From Membranipora membranacea (Eukaryota; Bryozoa; Gymnolaemata; Cheilostomatida; Membraniporidae), in NCBI GenBank assembly GCA_914767715.1, contig OU612075.1, positions 14,012,001 to 14,076,000 on the forward strand: DNA of 64,000 nt, written 5' to 3'. Below the pieces are notes generated by a model that was given only the letters and a program-made list of their open reading frames with translations, did no database searches and was not told the origin of the DNA. This document shows, one piece after another, positions 4,792 to 55,541 of this stretch. The number at the start of each line of letters is the position of its first letter. Position 1 is the first letter of the stretch. A program made the translations under genes and the position numbers.

Positions 4792-6084
4792 GTAAGTGAA
4801 CACAGCTAATTAATATCGAATATGGTCTGTAAAATCACACCCTCAAATTCTGAGAACAAAATTAACTTCTGTGTGTTATCCCACACTGTTAATGTTATTA
4901 AAGATTTTAACACTAAACTTATTTGCTTTTTTGCTAACATAGAGGCACTTCGTTTCTGTTGATTTCGAGCTCAGATAAAAATATTTAGTTTGCGCAGCAC
5001 TGCTGAACTGAACTCGATGACTGAGCTGATCACAGCACAAGCCCACCTGGAACGACCTGTGTGTTTAAACATGCACAATTTTTTCTTTATTTGAAATGAA
5101 AAAACAAATACATATAAACCGGCCGGCACTCATTGCTGAGCTGAGAGAGCAGCCAAGAGCTGCGTAGTTTTGCTTTTATTTATTTCGTAGCCAGGCCTTG
5201 GGAAGGTGTGTAAAAAATAAATCATGGGGAATTTTCTGATTTTAACCGACTGTTACAGAGGAGTTTCCCTGGTCTAATATCATGCTATCATGTCAATAGA
5301 TGGTAGTTGAACTTTACCTTCATCACAACATTTTTGCTTCAGCCATTGACAAGGCTGCTATAACCCATTCCAAAATAAACTCTAGATATTATTTTAGCAA
5401 CCTGACATTGAGAATTACCGCAAATCATCACAGTGGTCTAGTCAAGTAAAATATCTGGTATAATTTATGCAAAAAACCCAACGGAATTGGTCCATCCATT
5501 CTGTTGGTGCCAGCCTAAGGAGATAATGTGAAGTATGTGGGAGGATTTTAAGCCACAGTATAATGAGAATCCAATAATCTCAAGGTCACATTATCTGTCA
5601 AATTCAAGCTGTGGCGAAACTAGGCCTGGCAGTCTCTCTTATCTGCTTAGAACTACACAGCATCCCATAGTGAGGCTTATCTTTACTCACACCCTACAAA
5701 CCAAACATGCATACTGATTATTTACTGTGAATACATCAAGTATAAGGAAAAGAGTTATTTGTACCACGTCTCACTCTCAAAGCAGTCATTTTAATTCCAC
5801 CCATTTTGTAGTTGATCGAGTAAAATAGATATATAGTAGCAGTGTATATTTTGTATAGTCTGGATTTTTTGCACAGTCTGACCGTCAAAATTAAATCAAT
5901 AAATAATAGATTTACGGTATAGATAGGTTGACTGATGCATAGACAATATTTTTGTCTGCTTATTGTCACCTCATGAAATATGAATGTTATACATGTCAGG
6001 TAGTATATTAGGTGGTGTGTTTTCCTGTATGCAGTATGATATCCACATGACATAGTTTTCCCTGGTCTTAGCATGCATCCTTAC

Positions 6085-6109
6085 CAGAGACCATAGATAA
6101 TAGTCTCTG
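6085..6109. mobile_element. Miniature palindromic insertion, family B, 25 bp
   Basis: Reads CAGAGACCATAGAT and returns as ATAGTCTCTG. Flanks are TCCTTAC (6078-6084) and TCCCTAC (6110-6116), a 7-bp direct repeat with one mismatch. It resembles the copy at 19305-19334. Confidence 0.65.
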
Positions 6110-8880
6110 TCCCTACCGCGGAGAGCCCTGGTACAATTAGACTGAGAACTACCAATCACAAATAAGCTGCTTTGGAAGAGTAAATTACAGCGTCCACAGC
6201 AGGCTTCAGGCAGCTAATTAATAAACATGAGTTTCAGATACAATGAAATTGCACTCTTCTCGACAATGATATCTGGTAGAAAGTTTTTCACCAAAGTAGG
6301 CCTATACTTCTTGCAACTAGTATTCCTGTCAAAATTTCCCACCAATTTTATTCAGAACTTTAGCAGTATTAGATCGTAATTGTGATCTAAAAATCAAGCT
6401 GATACAAAATATTAATCTCTTGTGGAGGGCAATGGATTGATTGACGCAGATAAATCACTTTGAATGATAGAAAACAAAATCAGGTTTTCTTTTGAGTTGC
6501 AAGCTCTTTTTACATCCCGGAAAAAATCTTCACAAAACTTTTATTGCATACAAAGAATAGACCCACAACAATTACAGTATTTATAATCTTTGCCCACAAT
6601 ATGCCACAGTCAAAGATCATAAACCTCATTGCTATAGTACAATGACAATGACAGTATTTATGATCTTCGAAATTATTATATATTGAGATGGCCTTATTTT
6701 CATTCAAAGCCATTTGTTATGACCTCACTAATTGCTGTGTCATTCAATAAGAATTTAGTTTATCCTGCTTCTCTGCTTGTTGCGTTTAGACATCTCTGTC
6801 AAAGCCAAGAGTACGCTCAGAGAAAGTCCACTCAATACCACAAATTAGGTCTCACAGATCTGTACCCAAAGTCACCAGTTTTAACTGCAGCAATCACCTT
6901 ATAATGATCTCTCCTGTTCTGCTGGCATCTAGTATTGAATATATCAACTCTCTCACAGCGTAGACAAGAACGACGCTTGAACGTCTTTAGCAAATACCAC
7001 CACAACAACCCTGCTGTGCTCAAAAAATATATCAGCCGTGCCACCCACTCATCTGTGCGCAGACACTCTGAGCAATACTTTATCCACCAGTCTAACATTG
7101 TATCACCACCACGCTCATTCTTTATGCGAACTGCAAAGGATTGGAATTTACTTGCCCTTGATCACCTGCTCCTCAAACCTCCTAGCATTTAGCATTGGCT
7201 GTTCTGTTCCTATGAAATACTGATATTTTGACCTGGAACGATAAGCCGATTTTTGAGAATCCGGTTTCTAAAGTCACAGCTAAGTGCAGGACAAACAAGA
7301 GAGACTATGTTTTTTTTTAAAGTTATACGAGATTTTTAAAAGAATCTCTATTTTTTTAACGTATTTTGTAATATTGCCTAGATTTTAGTGTCATCAACTT
7401 AGCAAGTAGGATGGAAATTTAGAAATTACAATAATCAAATTAGTAATTAACTTATAATAAACTAAATCAAATTCTAGTTAGTTATGACTGTAATAAAGGC
7501 TGATCATCAAAAGATCAAAGATTTCTATTGGCTTATTGACTGTCAAGCTTACTACAACTTGTATTTTACGGTTTTAGTTCAATAAGAACAGCCTTGAACT
7601 TGACATTGTTCTAATAATCGCTTAAAATCCATTACTTTACTTCCCAGAATGTCATCTGGTCGCGGCGATCATTCATTTTGATGAATTTCCAGCCATTTTG
7701 TACAGATTATACATCCACCCCAATACATTACCACTTTAATTTCATATTGTTAAAATTTTAATCCTTCCATCATTCCAAAACTTTCTAAACCTCGTGATGA
7801 TTTTAATGCATCATTCAGTTAAAGGGAATCTAATTTTGGCTCAGAGCAATGAAAATTTTTTAAAATAACTACAAACAAGGGAACTAATAATATAATTGCA
7901 ATCTTGCTGGTTCATATTTTCAAACAGCCTGTCAAGCCCCTGAGAAACTTGATGCCACAAAACATAGATTGGCTAAAGATGGGTTACATCTAGTTATGTT
8001 TAGATTCACGGTCTATCAAGTTAATTTTCCTGCAAAATAATAAGGCCTCATATAGGAAACGATGAGTCTCTAAATTTGACCTTGTGTACCAGAATTGTCA
8101 ACAAATAGGCATACATAGTGACACCAATAAGGTGAAGAGATAGTGGAATATGGTGGTACCACGGACTGATATGATTGGATACAGCCAGTTTGTCACCTGT
8201 TCGGGGAGTGATGCTGCATTTTCTTGTCGTAATAAGAAGAATGAGGTATTCTACTACCTACAGGTTGCGACCAGAAACTGAGGTCACATTTCTAAGAAAA
8301 ACAAAATCATTGCATGAGAGGTAGAAAGTCATAACTGCCTGTTTGATTGATGAGGAGGTTTCATACGTGAATGACACTCAGGTGAACTCTTCTACCAGCA
8401 TAGATTTTAGGTTTCTAAGAAATATTCTGGGATTTTTGGGTTGTTTTCAGATGTCACGTAAAGTCATATATGAAAGGTGCAAAAGTCACCAACCTGAAAT
8501 GAGCAATGACTTGGACTCAAGCTTCTGTATATTAAAAAATATAATAGAATATAAAAGAGATGATAAAACTGGCAGAACTGATACAGTATAGAACTGACAA
8601 TGGCAAACAGTCCAAGCAGATCGTAATATGGCAACATCGAGATTCTGAAAATTTAGCGAGTGTATAAGGGAGACATCAAAATTGCTGAATGTGATTGAAA
8701 AGTAACAAATTGCAATTCTACAAATACTCAAATATTGCAAGTTATTTGACTACCCAGTCACCCCACAGCAATAACAGGCAAAGTAACAGATAAGAGCGCA
8801 ATAGTAGCTCAGTACCCAGCATATGGACAGAACTTTGATGATAATCATAGAAAGAGCTAATGGTAGCAAAAAGCGTCTTC

Positions 8881-8937
8881 TATGATTTGATGGTAGAATA
8901 AAAATTTACAGTTTATTATGTCTACCATCATATCATA
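8881..8937. repeat. Imperfect inverted repeat, 17-bp arms
   Basis: TATGATTTGATGGTAGA is answered by its near complement ending ATCATA, with a 23-bp loop. There is no obvious target duplication. It may be a decayed MITE or a chance hairpin. Confidence 0.5.
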
Positions 8938-9568
8938 ATCAGGAAGCGGAGTAGGTTTGACCAAAGAGTTAGAGGTTTGACACAGCTTCCTCCATCACAA
9001 GCATATATCGGGTTGTGTCTTAATTATCCTCCTTCCTGTAGTGAATGGTGAACTGAAAATTAGGCAGAGGCAAGCAGTGCCTGACATGTAGAGCTTAGCT
9101 TCATTCGTTTGGGTATATATACATGTATCCCCCTTTTAACAGGCCACTATAACCTACCATTGTCTGCCGCTGGCTATTTTTTAGAGTGGAGAGTGGAGTA
9201 GAGTGGGATTTTTATTGCTGCGTTTAGGGTTGTACAAACACACAGTAAATTTTGATTGATTGATTTATTGCATATCACAGACAATAATACATGTTGCAAA
9301 ATTCGGCGTAAATACTGGCCTCAAAAGTAGACATGAACAAACACGGAAAAAAAATCAGAACTCTGTAGGATTAGTTAAAACAAAATATCATTTAAAGTAT
9401 GTACAAGGTGACGTAAGCAAAACTGAGCACAGCGCAGTTCAAAGTACAAATCTCCCAATCAGAAACAGATCTGGTCGTCTGCATGAATGCAATGGCTGGA
9501 GGCCACCGGCATCAATTATTGGACTTCCTTGATTGAGCCAAAAAACTCCCTCAGTTCATCGATTCAAC

Positions 9569-9584
9569 CAAGGAGTACTCCTTG
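9569..9584. mobile_element. Miniature palindromic insertion, 16 bp
   Basis: Perfect palindrome CAAGGAGTACTCCTTG. Flanks are ATTCAAC (9562-9568) and ATTCAAT (9585-9591), a 7-bp direct repeat with one mismatch. It is the shortest of the class seen here. Confidence 0.55.
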
Positions 9585-9864
9585 ATTCAATAAACAAAGT
9601 TGATCCTTTTTTGATTGATAGTGCGTTTAACGGCGGCACTAGGTAACTAGGCAAGTTTTCTATAGTGCGGCACCGAGAGGTCTCTACTCTCAACTCCTTG
9701 ATGGCACCACTTATTGCAAGAAATTTGGTGAAATAATGTCAAATGAGAACAAATCCATTTGTTCCATTCCAGTTTTAGTCCCACTCCTGTGTAATCTTAC
9801 TTGGCTTATAATCTCATGTTCACATAGGACCACATAGCTATCAATTAGAACAGCCCATATTTGG

Positions 9865-10163
9865 CCCAATCACGTGAATGTACTTTACTCAGTACAGCGT
9901 GTACTAACAATGTACCAAATGCGAAGCTATAAACACGTTATCAAGGCACGTGATAGTCGTGATAATTTATGCGAATTATGGAAACCCATTGGCTTAGGCT
10001 AAATAGGTCATGATTACCTACACTGTGACGTCAGTTGCACGAGCCAATGTGCTTGCAAATCAGATTGTGACTGAACCGCAGAGCCAAAACAAGTACTAGG
10101 CAGAAAATTTCCTGCACTTTTGAACTTATCCACGATTCGATTTGTTATCCAGCCAACAAAACC
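9865..10163 (+). promoter_or_regulatory. Proximal PAR-bZIP promoter: two E-boxes, a CRE, CCAAT
   Basis: CACGTG E-boxes lie at 9871-9876 and 9947-9952. A full CRE, TGACGTCA, is at 10026-10033 and CCAAT at 10044-10048, just ahead of the exon 1b ATG at 10164. TTATGCGAA at 9968-9976 is close to a PAR-bZIP D-box. No TATA box is evident. Vertebrate PAR-bZIP genes are clock outputs driven through E-boxes; applying that here is inference. Confidence 0.5.
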
Positions 10164-16900: not shown

Positions 16901-17321
16901 AATTGATCTTCGTAGTGGGATCTATATCATGTCATGTCATCTTAATGGAGTCACGTACACACAATCACACATTTATCATGGGGTCAACTCAAGCTCACAG
17001 GTGACAGGTTAAAAAATGAAGTTTATCGAAAGAATTACATCTGCATCAACTTTTTTAGGATCAGTTTTAGCGTCCTTCCGGGCATATGGTAACAATCTTG
17101 TATTAACATATAGCGGGATATCATGTGCATGGTCACGTGTCTCCCAGTTACACCTGCTACGCTAAACCACGAACTTTACCCAGATAATCATTTCACTTTC
17201 TAATTGTTTATCATTTTCCAGGAACATTTGAAAATTCATCACCAATTTTTGTAGTTAGTAATCAGGATAGGACAACTCTATTCAATTTTATTGGTATATT
17301 ATTTTACCATAACGGTGCCAG
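13995..17321. other. Intergenic region between convergent genes
   Basis: Contains the PAR-bZIP 3' UTR, without a clearly recognisable polyadenylation signal, then AT-rich sequence with no supported gene. A 62-bp dispersed repeat is at 16079-16140. Near 16512-16600 there is an imperfect inverted repeat around GTGGGAAC / GTTCCCAC. Confidence 0.45.
16079..16140. repeat. Dispersed repeat, copy 1
   Basis: Shares TATTACCTAGAGTTTA..., ...TTAGGG..ACT and ATTAGGTAGCA with 63424-63490 in the same order and spacing. The ends form a short inverted repeat (TACCTA / TAGGTA), which suggests a small MITE. Confidence 0.55.
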
Positions 17322-17351
17322 CAGGGAGTTTGGGACATCCCATATTCCCTG
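17322..17351. mobile_element. Miniature palindromic insertion, family C, 30 bp
   Basis: Starts CAGGGAGTTTGGGA and ends TCCCATATTCCCTG. Flanks are GTGCCAG (17315-17321) and GTGTCAG (17352-17358), one mismatch. The first half is identical to that of the copy at 40740. Confidence 0.6.
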
Positions 17352-18073
17352 GTGTCAGCATATTTAATTTCAGTTGCACAAAAACAAATTGAACAGGGAG
17401 AATTAAGACAGGGTGCAGTTGTAAGATATTGGATTGTTTACAATGAAATTCATCATGGACGGAAAATACAGAAATGAAATAAAATTAAGTCAAAAGACCG
17501 GATAATACTTTATGGACAGCTTCAACTCAGAACGATGGGATAGCGCTTTCTATATTTCTAAAACTTTGCTACTCATCTATCTATCAGCAAGATAAAAGAA
17601 TGTCAAAACCCAACCTCATTTAAATAACAAATTAGGCTACTAGCGTTATCGCTTCGCTTGACTGAAAAAAAGTGTTATACAACCAAATTTTTTCTTAGCC
17701 ATGGGATGAGGACACGTGACGATGATAACACTTTATCTATTAACAAGGTTATAAAGAGACGGCGGCGGCGATACTTGACATAAACTGTGTGGTTTATATT
17801 TTGTCATATTTTGTTGCCAAACGAGACAGCCATATCTCCGATTCGTCACGCCGCATTGAAACGTGACCATGTGCATCACCAAAAGTAACAAAAAGGTTTA
17901 AGAGTCCTCAGCGTTCACTATTGATCAAGGTTATTCTCTTTGTGCGTCAAGAAGTTACCAGAACGATAATCATGCCGCCATATTTGGTTATGGTTTTAGA
18001 GAGAGGCGCCTTTTTTACGATTGGAAATCATAGAGAGAGAGAGACTTAGTTGTAGCTTCCTTATATGGTTTTC

Positions 18074-21000
18074 TCACTCTGAGCTTGTGTTTAAGTACTT
18101 GTTGATATCTTGTACTCTGACTATATCACCTGATGACACCTTCTCTGAGCACATGGGGCACACAGGATCCTCGCCATTCTGAAACCTACAATACATTGAG
18201 TCTGTTAAGAACAAACGCATGAGCATGTACACATTTTAAGTTTTTTTAATACACATTCATAATAATTATATGATATGACTTTATTTTTACAATGACCTGT
18301 AGCTTGACAGAGTTTTTTGTAACACAGTGTTCTCTTTACAGATCCGAGACAGTTTTCTGTCAAATAGTAGTTATGTTACAATCTAACACCTGGTCACAGA
18401 GTAAGGATATATCCTTACTCTGTGTCCTGGTCTAAAATGCTCTATTGCCATTAATTTGGCATACATCTGTAACATTCTTCCCTTGAGGGAGGGGGCTACA
18501 GGACCCCTCCCTCCCTCACTTGACACTACTACTTGTAAACACAGGGGTACGACTCTGACTGGAGTAAATCTACTGTCTAATCGATAATGATAGAAGATAT
18601 TTTAATGACGCTAAGCAGTAATAGCAAAGCTACCACTTTATCATTTGTGTCAAACATGATTGTCAAGAATTCAGTGCAATATATTTGTGCTGCTTCCAGG
18701 CAAGGCCAATTGTTGAAGGTCAGATCAGAAAATCTGTTTTGAATACTTGTTTACACATGTATGTGGACGATGTAAATGCTTAATTTATACTTACTTAGTA
18801 AATTCCTCATACAAGGCAGGGAAATCACATTTGGGGCAAGCTCCGAGATCTGTTTTAGTCAGATGGACACCCTGTGGTTATAAATAAATAAATACTTTAA
18901 ATTGAAATATTAGTGAATAACTCTGCTCAAGATTAGGTTGTCAGGGTGTTGCAGTTCTATGTCTTGTTGTTTTTAAGAATTAATTGTTACATGTAATAAA
19001 TAAAGGTAACTTCCTTGGTGCAAAGGGATACAATGTCTCAAAGCAGACCAAACATTAAAAAGTTTATTTTTTGCTACAAAGGATTTGGTTAACTAATTTT
19101 CAAACTATTAGCTGATAGATGAAATACTGTCAGTAAACGCTATAGGGGATAAATACTTAAATGTGAAAACTTTATTACCTATCAATTTACTGGGTGGTGG
19201 GGGAGGGAGTAGCGCCTCCACAACATTTTGATTACTTGGAAACCTACTAATAAACTATAAAGCCTGTATCAAAACACATTACTGGTTTGGCGTTGAAGTT
19301 GAAGCAGAGACTATAGATCTATCTATAGTCTCTGGTTGAAGTCTGATTATGCAAGGTTGACTAGCAACTTCCCTTTGGAATCTAGCCAACCCAGCTCACA
19401 ATAACAGAATTTAAAACAGTCAGCAAAATTTATTTGCATTTTCTGCACATTACTACCAGGAAGGTGACTTGACAGATTCTCTGATAAACTTTTGTGATGT
19501 ATTTTGATAATCGAAACCCTCAGATAATCTCTCTTGCAATTTGGCGCCAACTTTTTCCAGGAAACCTTTGGCTGATCACAAGAACAGCATGTAGATGATT
19601 GCATGTTTTCCACTACCTGTGAAGAATTTCCCTTATGATGCCAGTCATCAGTTATTTTTTGGAACAATGACAGTTGACAGCACCTTGTTGATATTGCACA
19701 AAGCCCTAGGACGCTGCTGCTGCTGCTTATATTGAGCTTACCGTAGCTATGCAGTATGGTATGTGGTTTTTACATTCAGGACAGCTAAGCTCCATATCAG
19801 TTAGCTCAAAGTTACAGTATGGACACGCTGATGCATTCTCCTCTTCCTCTGTCTTATCTGGCCTCCTACATCCGAGAGCAAAGAGACAAATAAAACAGCA
19901 ACATACAGACAAGTGCAGAAAACATGAAATCTTGTTCTGTAATGGTAATGGTAATGTCAATATGTTCTGTAATGGATATATGCAGGTATATGCATGACTC
20001 AAGTTATAAATTGTGTTGAGTCTGAATAGAAGAAATTAAAACTAGTCAAAACATGAGACATAATGGATAATTTCAGACATGAACATTGGATGATGTAAAT
20101 TTAGGGTGTGTCATCTATCTGTCATCGCAAAATTTTCCAACAATAAAATTGAAAACTATTAAAATTATGGTTTGACGCAGGTACCATGTGACATCGACTA
20201 TTGAGCTCACCTGAACTTAACTTGACCATAAACACTCGATGTGCTTGCCAATAAAAAGTAGCTGTTTTTCCAGAAAGTCCTTGACACATATTTTCAAACT
20301 GAAGGTCACATTTTGCATGGAATGTTTTGTATAATGAGAAGATATATTATAGATATAAGATTTTTCATATCTATGTCATATTTTTGACAATTTTTGTCAT
20401 TTATTATTGTAACATTGGGCTGTAAACAGCTATTTTGGGTATTTTTCGGCCTACAAAAAAATTTGGGCTACAAGAGTGCAAATCCGATATAAGGTTTGCG
20501 TTGGTTAAACATTTTTTTACAGTGACATATTGTTTTGTTGTCAAATCCCTCAATGCCAAGAAAGATGAATTTAGACAAAAAATGACCTAAAATGCAGGCT
20601 CAAAAATTCATAGCGACACTTTTTCTTGCTGCATTTCGTTAAAACGATCCAACAATTGGTTTTATTTTCCCAGAATTTTAGACTTGAACTCTCCAAAGAT
20701 CGTAAAGATTCATGGCATGCAATTTATTAATCCAAGTCATTTTTTAAATCAAACTTTTTTTTTGACAATATTGTTATCCGATGAACTGAGAAATATATCT
20801 GCCGATTGTCAGCAGATGAATGCTTTTTAATTCTACCATCGTTCCCTGTTGTCAGCATATAACTAATCCTTTAATCCCCTCACTTAGTAGAAAAAATGAT
20901 AAATCACCTTGAATATATTTACAAAATGAGCTAGTATCATGGAAATATTTTGGATGACCAATAGTCAGATGCCCATTTTATTTGAAAGACCCAATAAAGT

Positions 21001-24000
21001 TGAATGATCCATCATGATAACATCTTTCCGATTTATTTGTTGTTTTCCTGTTCCAACATTGTTGGTTAGGAAATAAAATGCTTTATTGGCTAATGGCAAT
21101 CCACATAAAATAACAAAATAATAAGGAGCACTGTTTATAGAGTTCTGCTCAAGTTCGGAATAAATTTAGCGCACAAAGTTAAGCTGTGGCAGGCAGGTAA
21201 ATGAGGAAGGATGGAAGTGGGGGGTGGGGAATTTGACAACAAGGTATATGCACTGGTAGGAAATATTATCATCGGCAGCTGCCCATACATATCGAGTTAG
21301 ATCAAGTTTAATCCAGTAGCCTGCATTCCAGTTGCTCCCTTCCACTGGTCACGTCGCAGTGTGACAAGTGGATCGGGAGCAACTTCGATTGCAGGCAAAT
21401 GGACCAAACTTGGTCTAGGTTTGAGTAGATTTCATATAACCAGGATAGTTGGGGACAGCATCGTATAATTATTGGGTGGGGAGGGACTCACCTGACTATT
21501 GCTTCTATTTTCTTCTTGTACTTCAGGTCGAGCTGGTTTTTATACTCAGGACGGAGTAACATGGTAGCGTAGCTAAACGCAGAAGTCTTCAATCCAGCTT
21601 TCTGACATTCTATTACGGTCGAGGTCAATATGGGCACAATGTCTGTAAAAGTGATAACAGGTGAACTTTTGAGTCGGTTATCGTTTGTACAAACTTGTTA
21701 AATGATTCTGAGTTTCCATATGATAACCAGATGCTGTTAGCTTACACTGTTCAAGCACTGGTAAAACTGTACTTTGCTATCTGTTTCTCCATTATATTAG
21801 CACAGAGTAAGGATATATCCTTACTCTGTGATATTAGTATCAAAATAAAAGCACATTCATGATCAATTATCAGCAATCTTGCCCAACCATATATTTTGTA
21901 TGACAAGCTTACACCGCTAAGATTTTCGTAAAAACCCATGAGCTCAAAGATAGGACTAATGCTCTAGTATTAGTGTAGTGGTCCCTTTTCATTATCTACT
22001 TCACACTTTGATTTCTATACAGATCCCGCTTAGCTGGGAGAAAAATTTGTGTTACAGCATATGAGCAAAAAAAATGGTTCCCTTTGTAAAAACACAGGGC
22101 ATGTTCTTTTATGCAGGAGTGTGCTGTAAAAATATTGTCAATTTTAGCTATGGATAATAAACCTCATCATCCAGTTACAGTTGGGGGTGGGTCCGCGTAC
22201 TCCGTCAAGCGCAATATTTTTCAGAAATTGCTGAACTTTGTTTACAAAAACAAGCAGGTACTTTGTTGTTAGTAGCCAAAAATGTAATTAGCATTTATGA
22301 ACAAACCAGGCCAACCTTTGATATTTATATCTGAGTACTTCTAGAGGGTAAAGTGTCTGGTTGATGCAAAGTTTAATTGAAGTGCAACATCTTGGTAATC
22401 AGTCAATGATAAAAATGCTGTGCTCAACCAATACAAGGAGTTAGATGTAAACGTTTCCCTCAAATTTAGAGGATGGATTTTTTCTGTAGTCATGACACGA
22501 GGTAAAACTGTTTTTTTAATAATAAGGAACCGAGTCCTCACTGGAGGCAGGAGAAAACACATAACATTTTATCGTAAATTAGTAATAAATCAATCGCTGC
22601 GGTTTCATCACAAGAAGATATGGGTTGGTTAACGAAGCAAGGGTCAAAGTTAGGTTTCCTTATAAACAGAGCCTTGACATAATAATTTTCCTAGCTCATT
22701 ATTATCTATTCATCACAAAACTTTTTTGAGTCATGATGGCAAATTTGGTTCACAAAAATAATTTCAATCCAAAAGTAAGGGAGTACTCAACCTCACATAA
22801 TATCATGTTTAATCTTCGGAAAAGTGCCAAGTGAATGGATTGACCCTAACAAGAAGACCATGTTGGTCCCGCTAAAATGTAATTTTGGCATTGACCTTTT
22901 ATCAATGGTAACTCTTAGTTTAGATGCACAAAATTAAATAGATAAAACCCTGATGTTTCCAGTCTGAACCTCCGATTTCCTTTAATAGTGCATATCGATC
23001 GAACAAAAGTTCAAATGGCTTGGTTTTAAACCACGCAAAAATTTCTCTTGGTAGTAAGACTATGATGGAGATAGTGAGAAAGAATGCCTAGATCTCAGCC
23101 TTTTTTTGCATGTATATAAGCGCAGGTTTTACATACAAACGGGGCTACTCTTACATTGGCAGGCTGATGTCCAGCTAATATCCCCATAGCACACTATTCT
23201 GAATTTGACTAGCTATTTATCTCTTAAATGTTTGTAACACTTACGTGACGGGAACTTGCTGATGTTATTAGCCACTCGGATGAGTAGGCGGGCAGCTTTT
23301 AGGTGCTGACCTTTCCTGGCATGTTGCTAAAACAGTATAAATAAGCGTACAGAAATTACGTACAAACATCATATTCTTTGTGACACTGAAACAAAATGAT
23401 TTTTCCTGCTGGGCTGAGTAGATCATAAAATTTAAGCTGTGACCAGAGACTGTAGTTATCTATAGTCTTTGCTCTTACTTGGGGTGACAGGGGCACATGT
23501 GAAAACTTTCTCTGTAATCAAATATTGGGCTGAACCAGCTTTGTCCTCAAACCAGTGCGTATGTCCAACAGATGTCACAGAACTGGCACGGCAGTGGTCT
23601 ACAGATATCCGGAAGATATCCGGCTTGGCATACCAGGAATAAGAACATAATTTCGATTTATAGGCATTTGATACCATGGGGCCCCCATCATTACCCACGA
23701 TTTTACCACCAAATACCTCTGTTCATCGTTCTTGTTCTGACTATCAAATCAAAATTCATCAAATAAAAAACAATTAATACGCTTGATGGGAGCATGCTGG
23801 TAGGTACACTTCCATGCTTGGTGATACCAGATGATTCTGACATGAATCAATAAGGGTATGTCATATTATATTTATATGGCGGTAGGCCTATGTCAAATTG
23901 TTTTCATACCTTGACAAGCATGTAGGAATGTAGAATCATCAGATTATTCTGCATGTCGACGGGTATTTTTATACTTTCTTTTCTCAGCTCTTGGTACATA

Positions 24001-30000: not shown

Positions 30001-33000
30001 ATTCATTTGAAACTGTTGAATGACACTACATCTCATTCAGACCTGCCGTTATAACCAATTGCTTGAGACCAGGTCTAAATAATAGGGACAGTTGGATTGT
30101 GGTTCTGTCATTCCAACCATCCATCAACCACCATCTCTCCTTGAGATGGCTGATAATAAAATTTCAAGACCACCAACAACCTTCAACTGCTACATCTGCA
30201 CATTAATGAAATCATTGTTCTAACATTATGGTCATCAACCACCAAGTCATCAACAATGCAAACCTACCTAATAGTTTGTGATAAAATAAAATCTGGCAAA
30301 ACGGTTGGCGTTATAAACTTTGAATGACAAACTTACCGATGATTTCAGCGTAAGTCTCCATCTGACCATGCTGCTGAGCCAGCTGGAAAGCCTCATCGTT
30401 ACACTTACTCATCACAAGGAACTGTATAGCTGTGCCAAAATCATTCAGCTTGATGAAGAATTTAGCGACCATCTTTGCGCCGTCGACAGATTCGGACTCG
30501 CGTACAACTCGTACAGCTTCGTCTGGGTTCTGCAGGTGATCCAGCTGAATTCTAAGGAAATTATTGAAAAATTATTAATAAATATATATTGGTGCTCATC
30601 AGGATTATACTATTACAATTGTCATGAGTTGAAATATGTCAATACCAACATATTGTATATTCTTCATTGCCTTGAGTAGAGTATGCCACAAGCAAATAAT
30701 CATAGATATAACCAGTAAAATATTAAATCTAAGTAAGAGTTGTCAGACAGACAGAGAACCACCAATGTAATAGCTATTAGATTATTGATGCTTGTTCTCT
30801 GATTCAGTTCGAATATCACAGAGTTGAGAAACTAGCGTAGAAGGTGCAGCAGGGCCATTAATGTCAAATATTTTGATGCAAGGGGTCTGCCCCAACCCCC
30901 CTTCCTTAAAAAAAGGTGTGAACCACCCACCTGATAACATTATCCCAGTCTTTGGCTGAAGCATAAGCAGCAGCCGCTTCTTTGTATTTCCCATCTTGTT
31001 CCTTAGCTTTAGCATACTGTGAGTGAATCTTTGGTGACGAAACCTGGGGCAACAACTCTCCAACCTTATTCCTGTGAATAGAACAAAATTTGTCATATTG
31101 AAGGTATATTATTCACCAGGAACATTGTACAAGGAAGTCTAGTGTTATTCATGAAGGACAATCCATAAATTAATTTACGTTTGGTTATGCCACTAAAAAT
31201 TTGCTAAATTTTGTTACACATATTTGATAATATTTTCACTTTTGTGAGCATCTGATCTGCTTATCTTATGCCCCTCACACTGTATAGAATGGAAAAGTCA
31301 GATATGGGCATTGCACGCCACAAAACTGTAGGTAGAAATCAATGAGGAACCTGAATAGAAAAAAAAAGTCAACCTCCGGCGGGACTCGAACCCGCAATCC
31401 CCTGCTTAGGAGGCAGATGCCTTATCCATTAGGCCACGGAGGCTGGTCTGTCACGTGGGAAAATTTATCTGATGTAGTATCATACAGACAATACTTGTTC
31501 TATTCTATATTGTGATTGGTCGACGGTAAACACTTTTGCTGTGATTTATACTTTTAAAGCATGGGATTGGCTAGAAAGCCTCACCAGTTTTTAACACGCA
31601 TGGTGCCACAGCTCTTAAAGTAAGGGGGATAACTCTATCACTTGAAATAAATGTCAGGAGAAGGGATTATCTTCAGCAATGAACTCCCTCGGAGTTCAGT
31701 GTATACAGCAACTAATGTATCTTTATTCTTTATCACTACGCCACACATACAGGAGTGCTAGAAAAATGTAATGTAGTTTGTTTGTCTCATAATTATTGAC
31801 TCTCACATACCAGTTTTTACTTCTAATATAGACAGAGGCAGCCTTATCCCAGTATTCTCCCTTCTCATATAGCAGTGCTGCCTCTGACCACTGCTTCATC
31901 GTCTCCAGTATCCCTGCACATTCCTTCTTTAGTACTCTACTTGGCATCTTCAAGGCCATATTTACTCCTCTGAAATTACAGGAAACCGAGTGAGGGAAAA
32001 TGAGAAAATACCTTCCGACTATCAATCATCACCTTAACTAATAATAACTAGCTGTCAGTCAATCTCTACAACTTTTTTGGTACATAGTTTGTTCCAATAC
32101 TTTTATGTAATGTATGCAGCTCAGTAGGTAAAAGATATCGAACCTTCTGATATCACCAGTCCTGATACTCATTCTGGCCACTCCGGCTGCGCAGGCCTCA
32201 TCATGATCTCTCCTAGCCTCCTCTCTAGTGATGCCTGACTCGTAATGTTTGAGGGCGTTAGATGAGTCACCCGTAAACTCGAGTTGCTGCGCATACTCTT
32301 TACTGATGTAAGGTATCTGATCTGGGGCTAATCGGCGAGCCAGACTGAGAGCGCTATCCCAGTGCATCAAATCTCGTCTCATCTAAAATATACGGTACAA
32401 ATGGTGGTTATACATGGAGATGACGCCATAGTCTGTAGTTTACATGCACTGCTGGGTTGAAAAAATGTCAAGCTCCACATCATTTCTAATTTAAGTGATA
32501 AATGCCATATTGTATATAACTTTTGTATTAGTTTGTTGTCAAGAATTTTATTTGATTAAACATGCTGTTTTTGTTATGAGTTTGTTTGGTGCTTTTTTGA
32601 GGCAAAAGGCTGTAATTATGTTGGCTTGCTATCATCCCAGTATGATGCCTAGATAATTAAATTGCTATTTAAGACTATTTAAGAATGGGAAGGTTACATA
32701 GCAACAGTGGTACACTATCAGCTTGATGAGTTGATCTTGAGTGTTGCTACCGGCTATATGATATTGTAATGCTGCTGCTGACAGCGACCCATCTCAAATG
32801 TCAACCACTTAGACTAGCAGGAGAAAAGATACAAATCTTACATCTAGGGCTGCCAGTGGGTGACTCGACTCCATAAAGGCTGACTGGGCAGCATCAAACT
32901 CAGCTAGAAACATGGCTATATATCCTGACAATAGCTTGTGATCCTCAAGATTACGTATCTTGTGTAGGGACATCACCATACCCACATCACCTACATGTCT

Positions 33001-39000: not shown

Positions 39001-42000
39001 TACAAGCATATACTTCCTCTAAGCCAAAGTATGCATGCCATCAAGTTCAATCATTCTGATCAATAACTAAAAGGTCTGGAGTATATCAATCACTCATACT
39101 AAGAAGTAGAATCAATGAGTCGACCATGCGATGAAATCTGAGTCAATAGGTCAAAAATCTAACCAATTGTAGGAATCGGGTCACAAGATAAAATAGAATG
39201 AGACTAACCACCAGGAGCTAGCACATAGAACCACACTCTGTTATTCATCCCAGTAGCTAGATGATATGGACCCAAGGCTACAAACGAAGGCTCCACGTCT
39301 ATCGGTACCGTGATCGGCTGCTCGCCATTTACTGAATCCTGGATAGTTACCTGTATAATACAAATAGGAAAAACATGTGCAGGTCAAAAACTAACGCAGA
39401 CAAAGTATAAACTAAAAAAAGATAATCGCTCTCCATATGAGAGTAAAACAGAAACCAGAACTTATATTGGGAAGTATGAGACTGCTAGGTTATTGCTAGG
39501 TTATATGCAAAGCCAATCAATCTGTAGGTGTTTTTGTCCTGTGTTAAATATTGTCCTTTGTTACCAGGATAGCAGTTGATTTTTTTACTATAGGACAGAA
39601 TTGATGTAAATATTGAAGCACCAAATGTTTTAGATAATTGAAAGTAATTTTGTTTTTCCAGTTGTGGTCAAAACCTTAGTCTGCCCAAATTTTAATCCAC
39701 ACAATTTTTATATGACTAGCCCGATACAGACGAGAGATTCTTACCTCGAGTAGAGATGTGAGGTACGCTATTCTTGTGTTGAATGAGTCACCGAGTATCG
39801 GTAGTCTCGTCAGGTAGACATGCAGGTTACCTCTAGGTGTGGAGATAGCTATAAGCTGACCATCGTCTGTCCATGAGATCTGATCTATAGATCTCTCCTC
39901 GTCTAGAGTTATGATAGACGTTACCTCCTTCATATCACTGGCCATGTGTATACGTACACTGTGCAAAAATCAATATACACCATAAACCTATCGACCTAGC
40001 CAAATCAGTAGTAACGTGGATATAACAAGAGGTGCATGTTACTTGAATCAACTACAAATATGGATGAACTTTATATGTCATATTAACAGCTTGTAAATTT
40101 TAATAAAAAAAATATCATGCTTATTATAATTCACAAGGTTGCGTGACCTGCACCGACGGAGTAACAAGGACTCAGCCTTAATATTACTACGCAGTCACAG
40201 TAATACATTTAGTAAATTTATCAGCGAATATGAGAAACTGTAATACATCCTCTGCTCCGATAACTGAAGGGTATGCCTCAAAAATTCAGTTGCTCATGTA
40301 CAACACACCTGTTATCTCCAGCAGAGGCAGCCATATCGATACTTGTATTGATATCTATAGAAGTGAGCCTATCCTTGTGATCTCTAGACTGATATAACTC
40401 CTGACCTATCTCCTTTATGTGAGTGGATATCACCACAAAATGTCCATGCGAAAAACCGATCAAAATATATCCATCACCGAACCTACAAACATTAAAACAC
40501 ACTGTAGATTCAAATGAGAAGGGGAAAAATGAAAGGCTGCTTTCAAGAGAAATCATACTATATTGATACATGGTTTTCTTATTTTGGAATTTACTTCATT
40601 TTCTGAATTGTGTTAATTACTTGGGAGTTACTCTCTCCTTGACATGTCATGTCAATAAGTGGGCAACTCCAAATTGCATAAATTGCCAATAGTATTCAGC
40701 CAGGGAGGTCTCCCACCCTCCCTGATTCAGCTAACAGACCAGGGAGTTTGGGACAAACTCCTTGCACAGACTGTACAACTGCAAATGTTGAATGGTAAAC
40801 TCACCACTTATAGTCCACGATATTTCCATACTTCTGCTGGAATGCAAGTTCTATTGGGTTATCTGGATCACTCATGTTAAAGAGAAACAGTGACTTTTTG
40901 CCCAGTACCAGACTCACCTGCAAACCAACAAATGTTTATTAAAGACACGGGAGTCTGGATTGAATGTGAATATCAACACTTAATTATATTCAAAAATGAA
41001 AATGATGATGTGATTGGTGGCGATCCCTGAGTTATTTTTGCAACACACGTAGGCAGTAAGCTGATGATCTGCATTTTGGGAATTAATTTATTACTGAGTT
41101 TGGTTACTCTGTGACACACATCCGCTTGACAGGGTGGTGTTAATTTTGCTCTTTGTCTAACATCATATTGTGTGTAAACTCACAGTATCTTCGCCGATCC
41201 TACTTCTCTCATCCATCTTCATCTCACTGAAGTGCACATCACTGGGTGTATCTCTCAGACTAGATTGTCGTATCGTGTCTCCGTCAGCGTTACTCACACT
41301 TATCGTTCTGTCATCACTGCCCAGAGCCAGTAACCCTCCCTTACTCCACGCACCGCAGGTTATACGCTTTGTGTGCTTACCGAGGATTGGGATTTTCCTG
41401 GATATAAAAGGAATGAATGATGATCTAAGTTTTTTCATTGATGGCTTCAAAAGATTCTTACTTATCTTTATCTGGTTAGTGATTCATCCAGAAGAACAAA
41501 CCTTTCAATGAGTACAAAACTATCTCAAAATGTCCCATTGTGTAGCATTTAAAATTCACACTTATTAGTTGATTAACCAAGAAACGTCTTCAGTCATGGA
41601 AGAATATCAAAAACTATTTAAATCCTATGGTGTATTTTATTATCTAGACCTGTTTAATAACCAAATTTATTTCCATGTGAGGCCATCTGTATGTGTCCGG
41701 TCTTGTAACTTTTTCACATTTATGTTATAATATATGACAAACTATACCTTGAAGTACTATGGTTATATATGAGTAGATTTCCTTTACCAGTACCAATAGC
41801 TAACAGCGATCCAGTCTTTGACCATGATAGAAATGTCAAAGGGTCTCTGATAAAAAACAACAACATTGAATATGAAGTTGAAGAGACTGCATCACATGAG
41901 TTTATGTGCCAACCAAAAGCATTCAACCATTATAAATAATAAATTTTTATCAAAGGAAATATGTTTCATTGAATGCCTCATCAGGTTATATTGGAGCAGC

Positions 42001-43472
42001 CAATCTATCGGAGGGTAAAAGGAAGGAGGTGAAACAACTTAGTTGCATTAGTTTCAAGGAGAAGTTCACTAGCAGCACATATAGCCATAAGCATGCTCCT
42101 CATTAACCGTCTCTTTTAGCCTACTTAGTAAGTTTATTCTCTCACAGATGGAAAGAAATTATGAGCAATCACCCACACAGCTCCTCTGTGTATACACCAT
42201 AATGGGTAAAATGTGTGTACTACATAATCAAGTACTATTTGACTGAATTTTGAGGGAGGGGAATCTCCTTACCTGAGACTGCTATCCACTTGGAATGTTC
42301 GCTGTGTATTTGCGTCCCACATAAATATGATGTGACTTTTATCTGTGATAACAGCGAGAATATCTCCATCTTTATCCCACCCAAGTCCCGTCACAGCTCT
42401 GAAAAGTGAAGTCAAGTGTATCAACAGAGGGTAGTGTAGTAGATAGATTTAAGCACAAACAAATTATTCATGCGGTAAGGATGTGGACAAGACTGGATAA
42501 TTCAGAAGCTTTGTTGATAGTCCACCAAAAAATAAAGATTGAGCTGATGCTCTTGACACACAGCATGAGCTTACCCTGGCAGATCTATGTCTCTTACAAG
42601 AGATCCATGTCTATCATAAACATTCACTTTGTTATCACCGCTGAAAAAAATAGAATAGATGTCTCATTATGACTCATTCCCTATGCGCACTGATTGATTG
42701 GCTATAATTGGAGAACACAATAAACTCGCCATATCACACATGGACATAAACTTATGTCAATTCATAGTACACAGACGGTTATTGTTGGGTATCAGAAGTG
42801 GGCTTTAACGCTGTGACATTTGTAAAACAAACTAGACAATGATCATAATTGGTGCGATTCACAATCAGACACATTGACAAATTTTTGGACTTACCTGGTC
42901 GATGCCAGATAGTTGCCTAATGTCTTTTGCCAGCTGAACAATGAGTGACTGCCTGCTGATCCTTGAAGTGAGAACAACCTCTGCAAGTAATAAAATGTCA
43001 TTAATAATATGAGATGAATCATTTGGTTTGGATGGCTTGATGCTACCGTGTAGGTTTAATTTGCAGGATAGGCATTTGTCTTGAAGAGGGTAGCTTAATC
43101 TTAGAGAATGTTACATGAGAATACAGTTACTTAGACTAACTAAGACGTAAGAGCACTTGGATAAAGTTCAATACATATCTCAGTTCATCCACTCCAGGCC
43201 ATAACTAGCTATTATACTTTACTTTTTCTGTTATTCTTTTGATTTCCAATTATTACATATACCAAGGAGTAACATTTACCCCTTGTACATACATAAATAA
43301 AGTACAGTAAAAGAATTTACATACATTCCAACAGGGAGAATGGAATCCATTCTCCCTGATTCCAATGAATTAATTATTCAATTAAAATAAATAAAGAATT
43401 TTACACTTGTCTTATTTTATTATCTATTATTAGTACATGCAATGTCTTGAAAGTTACCTTCATTCCAGACAT
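18074..43472 (-). CDS. WDR19: WDR19 / IFT144, intraflagellar transport complex A subunit
   Basis: Complete gene of 29 coding exons, 4029 nt, 1342 residues, the same length as I recall for human WDR19. Exons in transcription order: 43472-43458, 42980-42895, 42640-42575, 42398-42273, 41846-41748, 41397-41184, 40917-40805, 40482-40309, 39958-39745, 39350-39209, 37267-37161, 36825-36703, 36235-36086, 35728-35581, 34269-34106, 33358-33223, 33014-32842, 32382-32144, 31969-31811, 31071-30931, 30551-30337, 29910-29801, 29011-28865, 24131-23910, 23326-23245, 21642-21492, 19865-19742, 18871-18795, 18185-18074. Family motifs include [47 protein letters not shown] and LAPDQIP. Residues about 1-650 form WD40 propellers, 650-1230 the TPR-like solenoid, and the tail has four CPxC pairs (about 1253-1317) for zinc binding. 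The IFT-A complex drives retrograde ciliary transport. The start could also be the second ATG at 43463. Exon 29 needs the upstream of two tandem acceptors (TGTAG|GTTTCAG) to keep frame. Confidence 0.96.
18395..18424. mobile_element. Miniature palindromic insertion, family A, 30 bp
   Basis: CACAGAGTAAGGATA followed by its exact reverse complement. Flanks are ACCTGGT (18388-18394) and TCCTGGT (18425-18431), one mismatch. Identical to the copy at 21801-21830. It lies in WDR19 intron 28. Confidence 0.75.
18485..18517. repeat. G-rich hairpin GAGGGAGGGG / CCCCTCCCTC
   Basis: Short inverted repeat with strong GC content in an AT-rich intron. The lower strand has three consecutive G runs. Confidence 0.5.
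19305..19334. mobile_element. Miniature palindromic insertion, family B, 30 bp
   Basis: CAGAGACTATAGATC followed by its near-exact complement ending ATAGTCTCTG. Flanked by perfect 7-bp repeats GTTGAAG (19298-19304 and 19335-19341). It lies in WDR19 intron 27. Confidence 0.8.
21298..21417. mobile_element. Palindromic MITE, copy 2
   Basis: About 120 bp. Ends are TAGATCAAGTTTAATCC and, inverted, TAGACCAAGTTTGGTCC. The interior CACTGGTCACG / TGTGACAAGTG forms the hairpin centre. It lies in WDR19 intron 26, about 75 bp past the exon 26 donor. Confidence 0.8.
21801..21830. mobile_element. Miniature palindromic insertion, family A, 30 bp
   Basis: Same 30-bp palindrome as at 18395, flanked by perfect 7-bp repeats ATATTAG (21794-21800 and 21831-21837). 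It lies in WDR19 intron 25. Confidence 0.85.
23444..23471. mobile_element. Miniature palindromic insertion, family B, diverged
   Basis: CAGAGACTGTAGTTA then TCTATAGTCTTTG. Flanks CTGTGAC and CTCTTAC agree at five of seven positions, so this looks like an older copy. It lies in WDR19 intron 24. Confidence 0.5.
24132..28864 (-). other. WDR19 intron 23, the largest (4.7 kb)
   Basis: No coding exon or complete repeat recognised. A decayed family-B-like palindrome is near 27178-27201, and an inverted repeat AGAGGTA...TACCTCT lies at 27144-27163. Confidence 0.5.
29633..29810 (-). repeat. Minisatellite of 31-33 bp units built from the exon 22 donor
   Basis: On the lower strand the WDR19 exon 22 junction reads TACTCCAGG|GTAGGTACT. 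The following intron repeats this about five more times at 31-33-bp spacing, each unit with GTAGGT preceded by CAGG, AATG, CCGG, CAGG or AAAG. The first unit includes the exon end, so the repeat appears to have grown from the splice junction. Adjacent units alternate between ACTCAG and ACTTAG forms. Confidence 0.9.
31371..31443 (-). tRNA. tRNA-Arg (CCT)
   Basis: 73 nt on the lower strand, beginning GCCTCCGTGGCCTAATGGAT. The acceptor stem pairs GCCTCCG with CGGAGGT, including a G1-U72 wobble. The anticodon loop CTCCTAA gives CCT. A box TGGCCTAATGG and B box GGTTCGAGTCC are intact, and there is no tRNA intron. A run of nine T follows on that strand (31367-31359), a standard Pol III terminator. 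It lies in WDR19 intron 19 in the same orientation as the host gene. It closely resembles metazoan tRNA-Arg(CCT) and is very likely functional. Confidence 0.95.
38072..38243. mobile_element. Possible decayed MITE with GGCAACA termini
   Basis: GGCAACACAACGCTA near 38073 is answered by an inverted GGCAACAACGCTA near 38243. There is no clear target duplication. It lies in the 1.9-kb WDR19 intron 10. Confidence 0.4.
40701..40724. mobile_element. Miniature palindromic insertion, family C, 24 bp
   Basis: Starts CAGGGAGGTCTCCC and ends CCTCCCTG. Perfect 7-bp flanking repeats ATTCAGC (40694-40700 and 40725-40731). It lies in WDR19 intron 7, 16 bp from a second copy. Confidence 0.8.
40740..40764. mobile_element. 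Miniature palindromic insertion, family C, 25 bp
   Basis: CAGGGAGTTTGGGA then CAAACTCCTTG. Flanks are AACAGAC (40733-40739) and CACAGAC (40765-40771), one mismatch. Confidence 0.7.
43332..43358. mobile_element. Miniature palindromic insertion, family C, 27 bp
   Basis: CAGGGAGAATGGA, a central A, then the exact complement ending CTCCCTG. Perfect 7-bp flanking repeats ATTCCAA (43325-43331 and 43359-43365). It lies in WDR19 intron 1. Confidence 0.85.
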
Positions 43473-43867
43473 ACTGAGGGTAAGTTCAGTATCCTTTTTG
43501 GTTAGCTTAACTTGGTGATGCCTCTAGCACTTTCTCATCAAAGTCATATGGATTTGTCTGGGCCAAAATGAAAAGGGCACATGAAAAATGATTTTGTGTA
43601 GCAACAGGAATGCCACACATGCGCAGTCTCATCCTCCTATTTATGCACAGTTTCGCTCACAATAATTATTTTGTTGTTGTTTTTCATTGTCGCAACTGTT
43701 AATAGAAAGACCTTTATATAAGTTGCTTCCGTCCCAAAATTACAACCTCTGGGTTTTCCATACAAGACACAATCTGAATGTAATTCTGAATAACCATGGA
43801 TATTTGTATGGACAGTGATATACCCCTTTATGAAATATCTTAAAATTGGACACAAATTGTGCTGTAG
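43473..43867. promoter_or_regulatory. Divergent promoter of WDR19 and B3GALNT2
   Basis: 395 bp separate the two start codons, which face away from each other. No TATA box is obvious. ATGCGCAG at 43619-43626 resembles an NRF1 half site. AGCAAC at 43600-43605 fits half of an RFX X-box, the usual control site of ciliary genes, but the other half is not convincing. Confidence 0.6.
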
Positions 43868-49403: not shown

Positions 49404-49497
49404 TCCAATTGCCTGCATTCCAGTTGCTCCCTTCCAGTGGTCACGCTGTAGGCGGTGTGACCAGTAGATCGGGAGCAACTCCGACCAAACATGGTCT
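49390..49497. mobile_element. Palindromic MITE, copy 3, overlapping the B3GALNT2 stop
   Basis: Begins TAGATCGAGTCTAATCC, matching the left end of copy 2, and carries the same interior (GCCTGCATTCCAGTTGCTCC, CAGTGGTCACG, GGGAGCAACT). Part of the right arm is deleted before ACCAAACATGGTCT. The last B3GALNT2 codons (GAT CGA GTC) and stop TAA lie inside its left terminal repeat. Confidence 0.85.
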
Positions 49498-54529: not shown

Positions 54530-54669
54530 TATATAACTGTAAATACAGTACGATCACAGATCAATTATAGCTATTGAGCATCGTCAGTGTGACCGCTGTA
54601 TTTTATCTCTCTGCCTCGCTGTAATACAGAAGACACCGAAGGAGAGACCACGGAGCTCTTATATTTAAT
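54530..54669 (+). promoter_or_regulatory. Candidate TATA box and non-coding first exon of the bHLH gene
   Basis: TATATAA at 54530-54536 precedes a stretch ending in a strong donor, TTTAAT|GTAAGTG, at 54669/54670. The coding exon starts after an acceptor (CATTTTAG at 55534-55541) 12 bp before its ATG, so an upstream untranslated exon is needed. This stretch fits that role; the transcription start near 54560 is inferred. Confidence 0.45.
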
Positions 54670-54823
54670 GTAAGTGAATTCTACTTACCCCTGCCAATGT
54701 TCAAAACTTGTACGATTTAATGCTGGGATTATGATATTGCTGTTGAGGTGGGTTATCCTGGTTTTGTGTAACAAAAAATATTTTCATATCTCCTTCTGTT
54801 AGAATTATTTCTATGATAATTAT

Positions 54824-54838
54824 CACAGAGTAAGGATG
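54824..54838. mobile_element. Half copy of family A palindrome with 16-bp flanking repeat
   Basis: CACAGAGTAAGGATG equals one arm of the family A palindrome. It lies between TTTCTATGATAATTAT (54808-54823) and TTTCTATGATAACTAC (54839-54854), two mismatches in 16. Confidence 0.6.
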
Positions 54839-55541
54839 TTTCTATGATAACTACCCCTGTATTATGCTAACTCGTCTGATGAGCTCTGGGACTGTTATCA
54901 CCTATTCAAAAATGTTACATTTCCCATTCATATCTTATTGTGAGTGCATGTCAAATTAAAAAAATTACCCAACTTAATACCATGTATGTATTTTTGTAAA
55001 TTTTTCGCAGTGTGATAATGTTACTGCTAAAGAATAAAATGTGAAAGTATTCAAATATACAGTCACAAAAAGGTGCAGGGTGTTTGTTTATGTAAAATTT
55101 TTCAGCAGATTAAATGATTTTGAGAAGATATATAAGATATTTGCCTGTCATTTGTTTTGCGCTCAATGACAGGTTGACAAAATTGCAACTGAAATTTGTA
55201 TCTTCAGGTAACTGTACTACACAATAATGACATAACAAGGAAAATAATCTTGTATTCTTCAAGTCTGAAATAGCATATTCATTTATCAGAGAGACATTAA
55301 AGGCTGCTTTTGAAAATTAAAAGTGAAAATGTGACTAATTGACCTGTTGGTAGATTTTGAGGACGGGCAGGTTTCAAATTGTCACCTCTCACACGGCAGC
55401 GTAGACCCGATTATTGTGTAGGCTAGTGTGTAAAGAATGCAATGTAAAAAATATAATTTTTTTTTAAATCCTGCTTGACAACTGCTGTAGCTTGTCTCAA
55501 TTATTTTGTGGCTGCTACTACTTTATTGCGTGTCATTTTAG

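Follow-up and report, generated by a model that had tools for sequence, protein, structure and literature searches.

Short palindromes flanked by 7-bp repeats in the bryozoan Membranipora membranacea: probable excision footprints of P-superfamily transposons

Introduction

The transposase of the Drosophila P element makes its cut 17 bp into the 31-bp inverted repeat and thereby generates 17-nt 3' extensions, a stagger described as atypical for transposons (PMC7776569, PMC10983969). The joins formed after such excision are recorded in Table 1 of PMC2895639, which describes 66 isolates of P{wa} excision from Rad51-deficient Drosophila melanogaster. The layout of these joins is a target duplication, part of the 17-nt tail, a microhomology or an insert, the second tail, and the second duplication. 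We set aside 22 of the 66 isolates, in which the duplication was partly lost (14 of the 22 have one long microhomology in common). Among the 44 joins with both duplications, which range from 7 to 44 bp, 14 are one and the same 30-bp palindrome. Templated insertions are described as frequent in fly alternative end joining, and repair after P excision often involves partial copying followed by end joining (PMC2895639). Here we report that a window of 64,000 nucleotides from the sea mat Membranipora membranacea (contig OU612075.1, positions 14,012,001 to 14,076,000) contains ten short palindromes flanked by 7-bp repeats, and that related palindromes occur at hundreds of places in the genome. These sites resemble the fly P footprints in their anatomy, in the 30-bp mode, and in a second end that is the reverse complement of the first. 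The fly joins were recovered from a single engineered locus in a Rad51-deficient background and have an 8-bp duplication (PMC2895639), whereas the bryozoan sites are natural, are found at hundreds of places, and have a 7-bp duplication and other end sequences.

Other members of the P superfamily provide further points of comparison. Galileo of Drosophila willistoni has mostly 7-bp target duplications (8 bp for three copies) with the consensus GTATTAC, long inverted repeats and non-autonomous copies, as in the bryozoan, but its end sequence differs, and the available part of the account makes no mention of short footprints (PMC4168063). Zebrafish Pdre2, with its THAP9 transposase, is a P-superfamily element from beyond the insects with ends starting in CA; it differs by an 8-bp duplication and a 13-bp terminal repeat, and larger flanking deletions are reported for the excision of fly P elements by zfTHAP9 (PMC10983969). 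The P-related miniature inverted-repeat transposable elements (MITEs) of Anopheles gambiae are likewise non-autonomous with P ends, but have 8-bp duplications and an unrelated central sequence (PMC1562414). Unlike these, the bryozoan element of ~700 bp described below folds back on itself. Neither the exact end sequences nor accounts of such sites were found in the open-licence PMC literature.

Materials and methods

The strict scan of the window retained sequences of the form CA..TG of 16 to 40 bp with at most one mismatch in the outer seven pairs and at most one mismatch between the 7-bp flanks. The null model consisted of 1000 dinucleotide-preserving shuffles of the window. Genome searches covered 339,339,785 bases in 18 contigs, and reversed patterns were used as controls. 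An alternate haplotype, GCA_914767555.1, is named in PMC10290214. Flanks of exact 30-mers were checked for 20 chromosome 1 copies taken in list order, with one earlier copy skipped. Variant sites comprised 19 of 20 unpaired places on chromosome 1, one additional nested site, and the initial 20 of the unpaired places listed for chromosome 2. All fetched sites and those of the window were pooled if the outer 10 nt were exact at both ends and the length did not exceed 60 bp; sites with an altered or missing end, such as L038, were excluded. The pattern used for the CAGAGAC family limited site length to 54 bp.

Results

All ten palindromes listed in a preliminary description of the window were found where it had placed them. 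The flanking 7-bp repeats are perfect in four cases (19305, 21801, 40701, and 43332), have one mismatch in five (6085, 9569, 17322, 18395, and 40740), and two in one (23444). The description of the palindromes as almost entirely inverted repeat is loose for four of them, since 4 of the 12 pairs are mismatched at 40701 and three pairs each at 6085, 17322, and 23444. The excess over chance expectation was confirmed: the strict scan gave nine matches in the window, in comparison to a mean of 0.095 and a maximum of 3 in the shuffles. With perfect flanks only, four matches were obtained (shuffle mean, 0.005; maximum, 1). Flanks of 4, 5, 6, 8, 9, 10, and 11 bp displayed no clear enrichment in the window relative to the 1000 shuffles, the nearest being 6 bp with one mismatch (2 versus a mean of 0.36, a value reached by 55 of the 1000 shuffles). 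When any terminus was allowed, 13 matches were found, 9 of them starting with CA, versus a mean of 1.32 and a maximum of 5 in 100 shuffles. A somewhat looser scan of another 130 kb, taken as 13 stretches of 10 kb each with round-number coordinates, revealed four more palindromes; thus, the window is dense but not unique. Several families are present, as had been proposed, the assignments to CAGGGAG and CAAGGAG being based on the window plus a few sites in the 13 additional stretches.

The exact CACAGAG 30-mer, CACAGAGTAAGGATATATCCTTACTCTGTG, has 309 copies in the genome, in comparison to none for the reversed control. Flush 7-bp repeats with at most one mismatch flanked 14 of the 20 chromosome 1 copies (11 perfect), and a perfect 7-mer displaced by 1 or 2 bases was found at 2 further copies. 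The flanking 7-mers vary between places. Exact 28-mers and 26-mers gave similar results, with 7-bp flanks of at most one mismatch at 9 of 10 (8 perfect) among the chromosome 1 matches listed and at 8 of the 9 taken (5 perfect), respectively. A pattern consisting of the CACAGAG end followed by a non-A base had 126 forward matches and 118 reverse matches (7 and 0, respectively, for the control). The variant sites sampled from these had flush 7-bp flanks with at most one mismatch in 12 of 19 cases on chromosome 1 and 11 of 20 on chromosome 2. They included joins of CACAGAG ends of 27, 29, 31, 34, 36, and 40 bp, one-ended sites, point-mutated 30-mers, an 18-bp join that keeps just four nucleotides of the second end, a true element end (L024), and two palindromes lying amid three copies of one 7-mer (L026).

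The pool comprised 64 distinct two-ended CACAGAG sites of 26 to 41 bp, which form a non-random sample because the 30-, 28-, and 26-mers were picked from listings. Their lengths were 26 bp (10 sites), 27 bp (1), 28 bp (12), 29 bp (2), 30 bp (32), 31 bp (1), and 32 bp (2), with one site each of 34, 36, 40, and 41 bp. Flanks of 7 bp with at most one mismatch were present at 50 of the 64 sites, and these 50 contained 13 distinct inserts. The retained end sequence did not exceed 17 nt at any pooled site. As the only site with 17 nt (L097) falls within a repeat-like insertion, 16 nt is the safer ceiling. The target motif of CACAGAG sites is ATAATAT-like: among the 41 footprints with perfect flanks, A was found at position 1 in 39, T at position 2 in 32, A at position 6 in 35, and T at position 7 in 30.

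Full-length elements with the same ends were identified. The CACAGAG end with a non-A base at position 17 matched 359 forward and 340 reverse places (control, 0), and the listed places included inverted pairs ~700 bp apart. The seven pairs that were fetched are 696 to 703 bp long, have 97.9 to 99.1% pairwise identity and one common structure, and are all flanked by perfect 7-bp target duplications. The flanks match the target motif at A1 in 6 of 7, T2 in 5 of 7, A6 in 6 of 7, and T7 in 3 of 7. The ends start with CACAGAGTAAGGATAAGCAGAGGGGACACTTCAA and extend beyond the palindrome half; the ends of L088 match each other over 60 nt, and L086 can be folded back onto itself with 81% identity over 716 aligned positions. 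The CA..TG ends and the 7-bp target duplication of these parents are as expected for the P superfamily, in which Galileo has duplications of 7 or 8 bp. The longer end has 145 exact places in the genome (76 plus 69), and the 100 listed rows contain 29 pairs at 679 to 705 bp and two wider spacings of 3.0 and 9.0 kb. In counts of exact matches, the 30-mers alone therefore outnumber the full-length ends (309 versus 145). No larger element with ends of these palindrome families was found in the window, where the weak long candidates with 7-bp flanks (17700-19851, 42143-49119, and 63164-63301), one candidate with 8-bp flanks, and the two 7-bp and two 8-bp candidates of a second scan all had other ends. 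Two patterns searched in viral contigs gave no match.

The second family was defined by CAGAGACTATAG..CTATAGTCTCTG with 0 to 30 bases between them, which matched 510 genomic sites (control, 0). The first 50 by position are 25 to 52 bp long, with a mode of 30 bp (11 of 50) and a median of 31 bp. The 27 sequences listed comprise 12 distinct inserts, five of which are perfect palindromes, others carrying repeats such as TAATAAATAATAGATAATAG. The window contains three members (6085, 19305, and 23444), and these provide the evidence for duplications in this family; that at 19305 is one base off the commonest join among the 27 sequences.

P-type transposases are encoded by this genome. The TNP-like RNase H profile PF21787 gave at least 134 matches with E values of ≤0.001 (best, 6.5e-42) among the 150 scored out of 211 candidates, whereas none of 14 control genomes had a match. 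An open reading frame of 762 amino acids matched the P transposase structure 6p5a of the PDB with an E value of 3.2e-38, and a further frame matched it with 5.9e-13. Two copies around the 762-amino-acid frame (L018 and L019) are 99.4% identical over more than 6.3 kb, and their common stretch extends beyond the piece examined. A complete element of 4933 bp with ends CATAGACCTACTAATAATAAACCTAG was found in two copies (L080 and L081; 99.86% identical). It has 8-bp duplications and inverted repeats of ~510 bp (91% alike). RNase H C is encoded in one open frame, and THAP, HTH, RNase H N, and GTP-binding domains are found together in a different one. The elements at L082-L085 were bounded on one side at most.

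The ends of the 4933-bp element were found joined to each other in a stretch that had been chosen independently (L015:1354-1401), in which they form a palindrome of 48 bp that has a single mismatched pair and is flanked by perfect 8-bp repeats. Here, a scar of the type seen in the 7-bp families stems from a bona fide P-type element. A 22-bp palindrome, CATAGACTTATATAAGTCCATG, with 8-bp flanks differing by one mismatch (L006:2233-2254) is possibly a further 8-bp family.

The features of the palindrome class in the window are collected in Table 1. An end resembling that of the site at 31677-31701 was found at L017:3958-3979. The two 16-bp flank copies around the one-ended scar at 54824 differ at two bases, and this arrangement suggests end joining with a re-copied flank. 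An extra 15-bp case with one mismatch at 271-285 may be due to chance.

Table 1. Putative footprints and related sites in the window (coordinates of the insert in parentheses, of the insert with its flanks in the second column)
Feature	Extent	Strand	Remarks
CAGAGAC-family footprint, 25 bp (6085-6109)	6078..6116	.	read as 15+10 nt; flanks tccttac/tccctac
CAAGGAG-family palindrome, 16 bp (9569-9584)	9562..9591	.	flanks attcaac/attcaat
CAGGGAG-family footprint, 30 bp (17322-17351)	17315..17358	.	flanks gtgccag/gtgtcag
CACAGAG-family 30-mer (18395-18424)	18388..18431	.	flanks acctggt/tcctggt; among the 309 exact genomic copies
CAGAGAC-family footprint, 30 bp (19305-19334)	19298..19341	.	perfect flanks gttgaag
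CACAGAG-family 30-mer (21801-21830)	21794..21837	.	perfect flanks atattag
CAGAGAC-family footprint, 28 bp (23444-23471)	23437..23478	.	two-mismatch flanks
Possible CAATGAAC-family footprint, 25 bp (31677-31701)	31670..31708	.	two-mismatch flanks
CAGGGAG-family footprint, 24 bp (40701-40724)	40694..40731	.	perfect flanks attcagc
CAGGGAG-family footprint, 25 bp (40740-40764)	40733..40771	.	read as 15+10 nt; flanks aacagac/cacagac
Probable extra CAAGGAG-family footprint, 23 bp (43263-43285)	43256..43292	.	two-mismatch flanks
CAGGGAG-family footprint, 27 bp (43332-43358)	43325..43365	.	perfect flanks attccaa
One-ended scar, 15 nt CACAGAGTAAGGATG (54824-54838)	54808..54854	.	between two 16-bp flank copies

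The window is gene-bearing animal DNA. Four of ten open reading frames tested had Pfam matches (bZIP, HLH, galactosyltransferase, and WDR19 propeller), that to galactosyltransferase being slightly below the cut-off, and a tRNA-Arg (CCT) gene lies on the minus strand at 31370-31444. A unit of ~400 bp is present in duplicate at 60380-61161, with a tRNA-like match at 60987-61064 that is barely above the Rfam threshold. Two elements with 8-bp flanks lie nearby. The first (61388-61523; 136 bp) has perfect flanks ccgttatc and ends CAGGGGCGTATCC, which differ from each other at 2 of 13 positions, and by its looks is a hAT-like MITE. The second (62125-63344; 1220 bp) has perfect 13-nt inverted ends CAGACCTGGGTCC and perfect flanks gaaaatac, and holds arrays of AAGTC repeats.

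Discussion

The palindromes are very probably footprints of excision, and P-superfamily transposons are the most likely source. In this scenario, a transposon with ends like CACAGAGTAAGGATAAGCAGAGG would insert and duplicate 7 bp of its target, as seen in the seven ~700-bp elements. A P-type transposase would later excise the transposon, cutting the non-transferred strand ~15 to 17 nt inside each end, and each donor end would therefore consist of a target copy plus ~15 to 17 nt of transposon as a 3' overhang. Host end joining would then unite the cut ends, either with no overlap (15+15 = 30), through self-complementary dinucleotides (13+2+13 = 28 and 12+2+12 = 26), or with insertions that seem to be templated. 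For the end CACAGAGTAAGGATAAG, lengths of 26 and 28 bp result from joining at the AT of nt 13-14 and at the TA of nt 14-15, respectively, and joins of 15+15 and 16+16 without overlap give 30 and 32 bp. We infer that a P-type transposase cut the elements of the 7-bp families, that it cut 15 to 17 nt inside the ends, as suggested by the ceiling on retained sequence (17 nt is established for fly P), and that microhomology-type end joining produced the joins.

Several observations support this interpretation. At 50 of the 64 pooled CACAGAG sites, the remnant is enclosed by 7-bp repeats with at most one mismatch, as expected from the perfect target duplications of all seven parents. At these pooled sites of up to 60 bp, only the outermost ~17 nt are kept despite a longer terminal repeat. 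The junctions vary, including microhomology, absence of overlap, and insertion. The abundance of P transposase matches and the 4933-bp element with a footprint of its ends also speak for P-type excision. The preliminary description had read the palindromes as two abutted transposon ends inside a target duplication, which agrees with our results; of the origins that it left open, end-joining relics are favored by the varied junctions. Its headline of ultra-short insertions, meaning transposons in their own right, is not supported, in view of the full-length parents of one family and a junction variety like that of end joining. The search that it had proposed, for larger elements that share the ends and have a 7-bp duplication, was positive for the CACAGAG family.

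Several observations weigh against excision footprints. Among the exact 30-mers checked on chromosome 1, 4 of 20 have no clear duplication; of the variant sites, 7 of 19 on chromosome 1 and 9 of 20 on chromosome 2 are without a flush one. The commonest 30-mer needs either a 15+15 join without overlap from the usual ATAA ends or the rarer ATAT ends; ATAT was found at nt 13-16 in 5 of the 100 listed parental ends, and a 30-mer from such ends would be a two-base overlap. Parents were found for CACAGAG but not for CAGAGAC or CAGGGAG, for which the search was not completed. Among the scored PF21787 candidates (150 of 211), we found no element combining a transposase with CACAGAG ends, and none of the listed PF21787 places falls inside the two longer CACAGAG pairs of C5 (4585403-4588423 and 5703208-5712222, the latter being one element or two). 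The joined ends at L015:1354-1401 keep 22 nt exactly per side (26 nt if one changed base is allowed), that is, more than 17 nt, and a longer cut offset or brief copying is therefore needed for that site. A palindrome that is itself mobile would likewise fit the predominance of one 30-mer and the nested runs.

Two loci stand apart in the orientation of their flanks. L105 (C1:22116446-22116513) is a 28-bp footprint whose flanks appear inverted (catctat/atagata). L099 (C2:122380-122700) contains nested CACAGAG and CACAGCG footprints in a row, with the common 7-mer aagggat and some members inverted; this row may reflect reuse of one site or local rearrangement. The inverted flanks in part of L099, as in L105, also count against the footprint interpretation.

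The palindromes could be the smallest of MITEs, consisting of two abutted ends mobilized by a P-type transposase in trans, each with its own 7-bp duplication. The 309 exact 30-mers, 14 of the 20 examined with their own flush duplication, and the nested runs with a common flank at L026 and L099 speak for such mobility. The junction spectrum is at odds with it, with 13 inserts among 50 CACAGAG sites, 12 among 27 CAGAGAC sequences, long repeat-like insertions, and one-ended sites, and full-length parents with a similar target motif exist. A MITE has one internal structure and moves as a unit, and the short palindromes, with inserts as diverse as those of the CAGAGAC sites, do not have this character. 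Fly P elements require internal binding sites and subterminal repeats. In fly P, these transposase binding sites and subterminal repeats lie further inward than the 31-bp terminal repeat (PMC7776569); the 30-mer is devoid of them. The junction spectrum led us to demote the minimal mobile MITE to an alternative, which we regard as unlikely. The same low probability applies to a variant in which the perfect 30-bp palindrome, once a footprint, was remobilized by a P-type transposase, part of the 309 copies being insertions.

Extreme internal deletions during gap repair of P-type elements, by short copying of the sister template and then joining, would also leave two abutted ends. The frequency of partial copying after fly P excision and the 22 to 26 nt retained at L015:1354-1401 are in keeping with this mechanism. 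However, random copying would be expected to give a continuous range of retained lengths, contrary to the 17-nt ceiling at the 64 CACAGAG sites of up to 60 bp, even though the two ends of L088 share 60 identical nt. Gap repair is improbable as the origin of the palindromes.

Parents from another superfamily with a 7-bp duplication, such as hAT, are equally improbable. CAGGG and CAGAG ends are also found in hAT elements, the target of which is NTNNNNAN, and no autonomous partner of the CACAGAG family was found among the scored candidates. However, hAT duplications are 8 bp, and hAT excision forms hairpins on the flanking DNA, by which 15 to 17 nt of the element would not be left behind. P transposase matches are abundant in the genome, in which no search was aimed at hAT transposases. 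We rejected hAT as the best reading on account of the position of the excision hairpins on the flank.

Chance palindromes or regulatory dyads have practically no probability left: short AT-rich palindromes are common, and the window has 72 CA..TG rows regardless of flank, but none of the 1000 shuffles reached nine, and the 309 and 510 genomic sites against none in the reversed-pattern controls refute this explanation.

Excision of P-superfamily transposons would account for a class of repeats that could otherwise be taken for ultra-short MITEs, and would mean that the scars of a transposon family can outnumber its copies. Were the palindromes mobile after all, the 30-mer would be an extraordinarily small DNA transposon. 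If they are footprints, each would mark a past double-strand break in the germ line for which both the ends and the outcome are known, and hundreds of natural repair junctions would be available from a single assembly, in comparison to the 66 fly isolates of PMC2895639. The joining of P-type breaks and the depth of the transposase cut would then be testable in a bryozoan from sequence alone, and the genome of the sea mat would constitute a natural record of DNA break repair.

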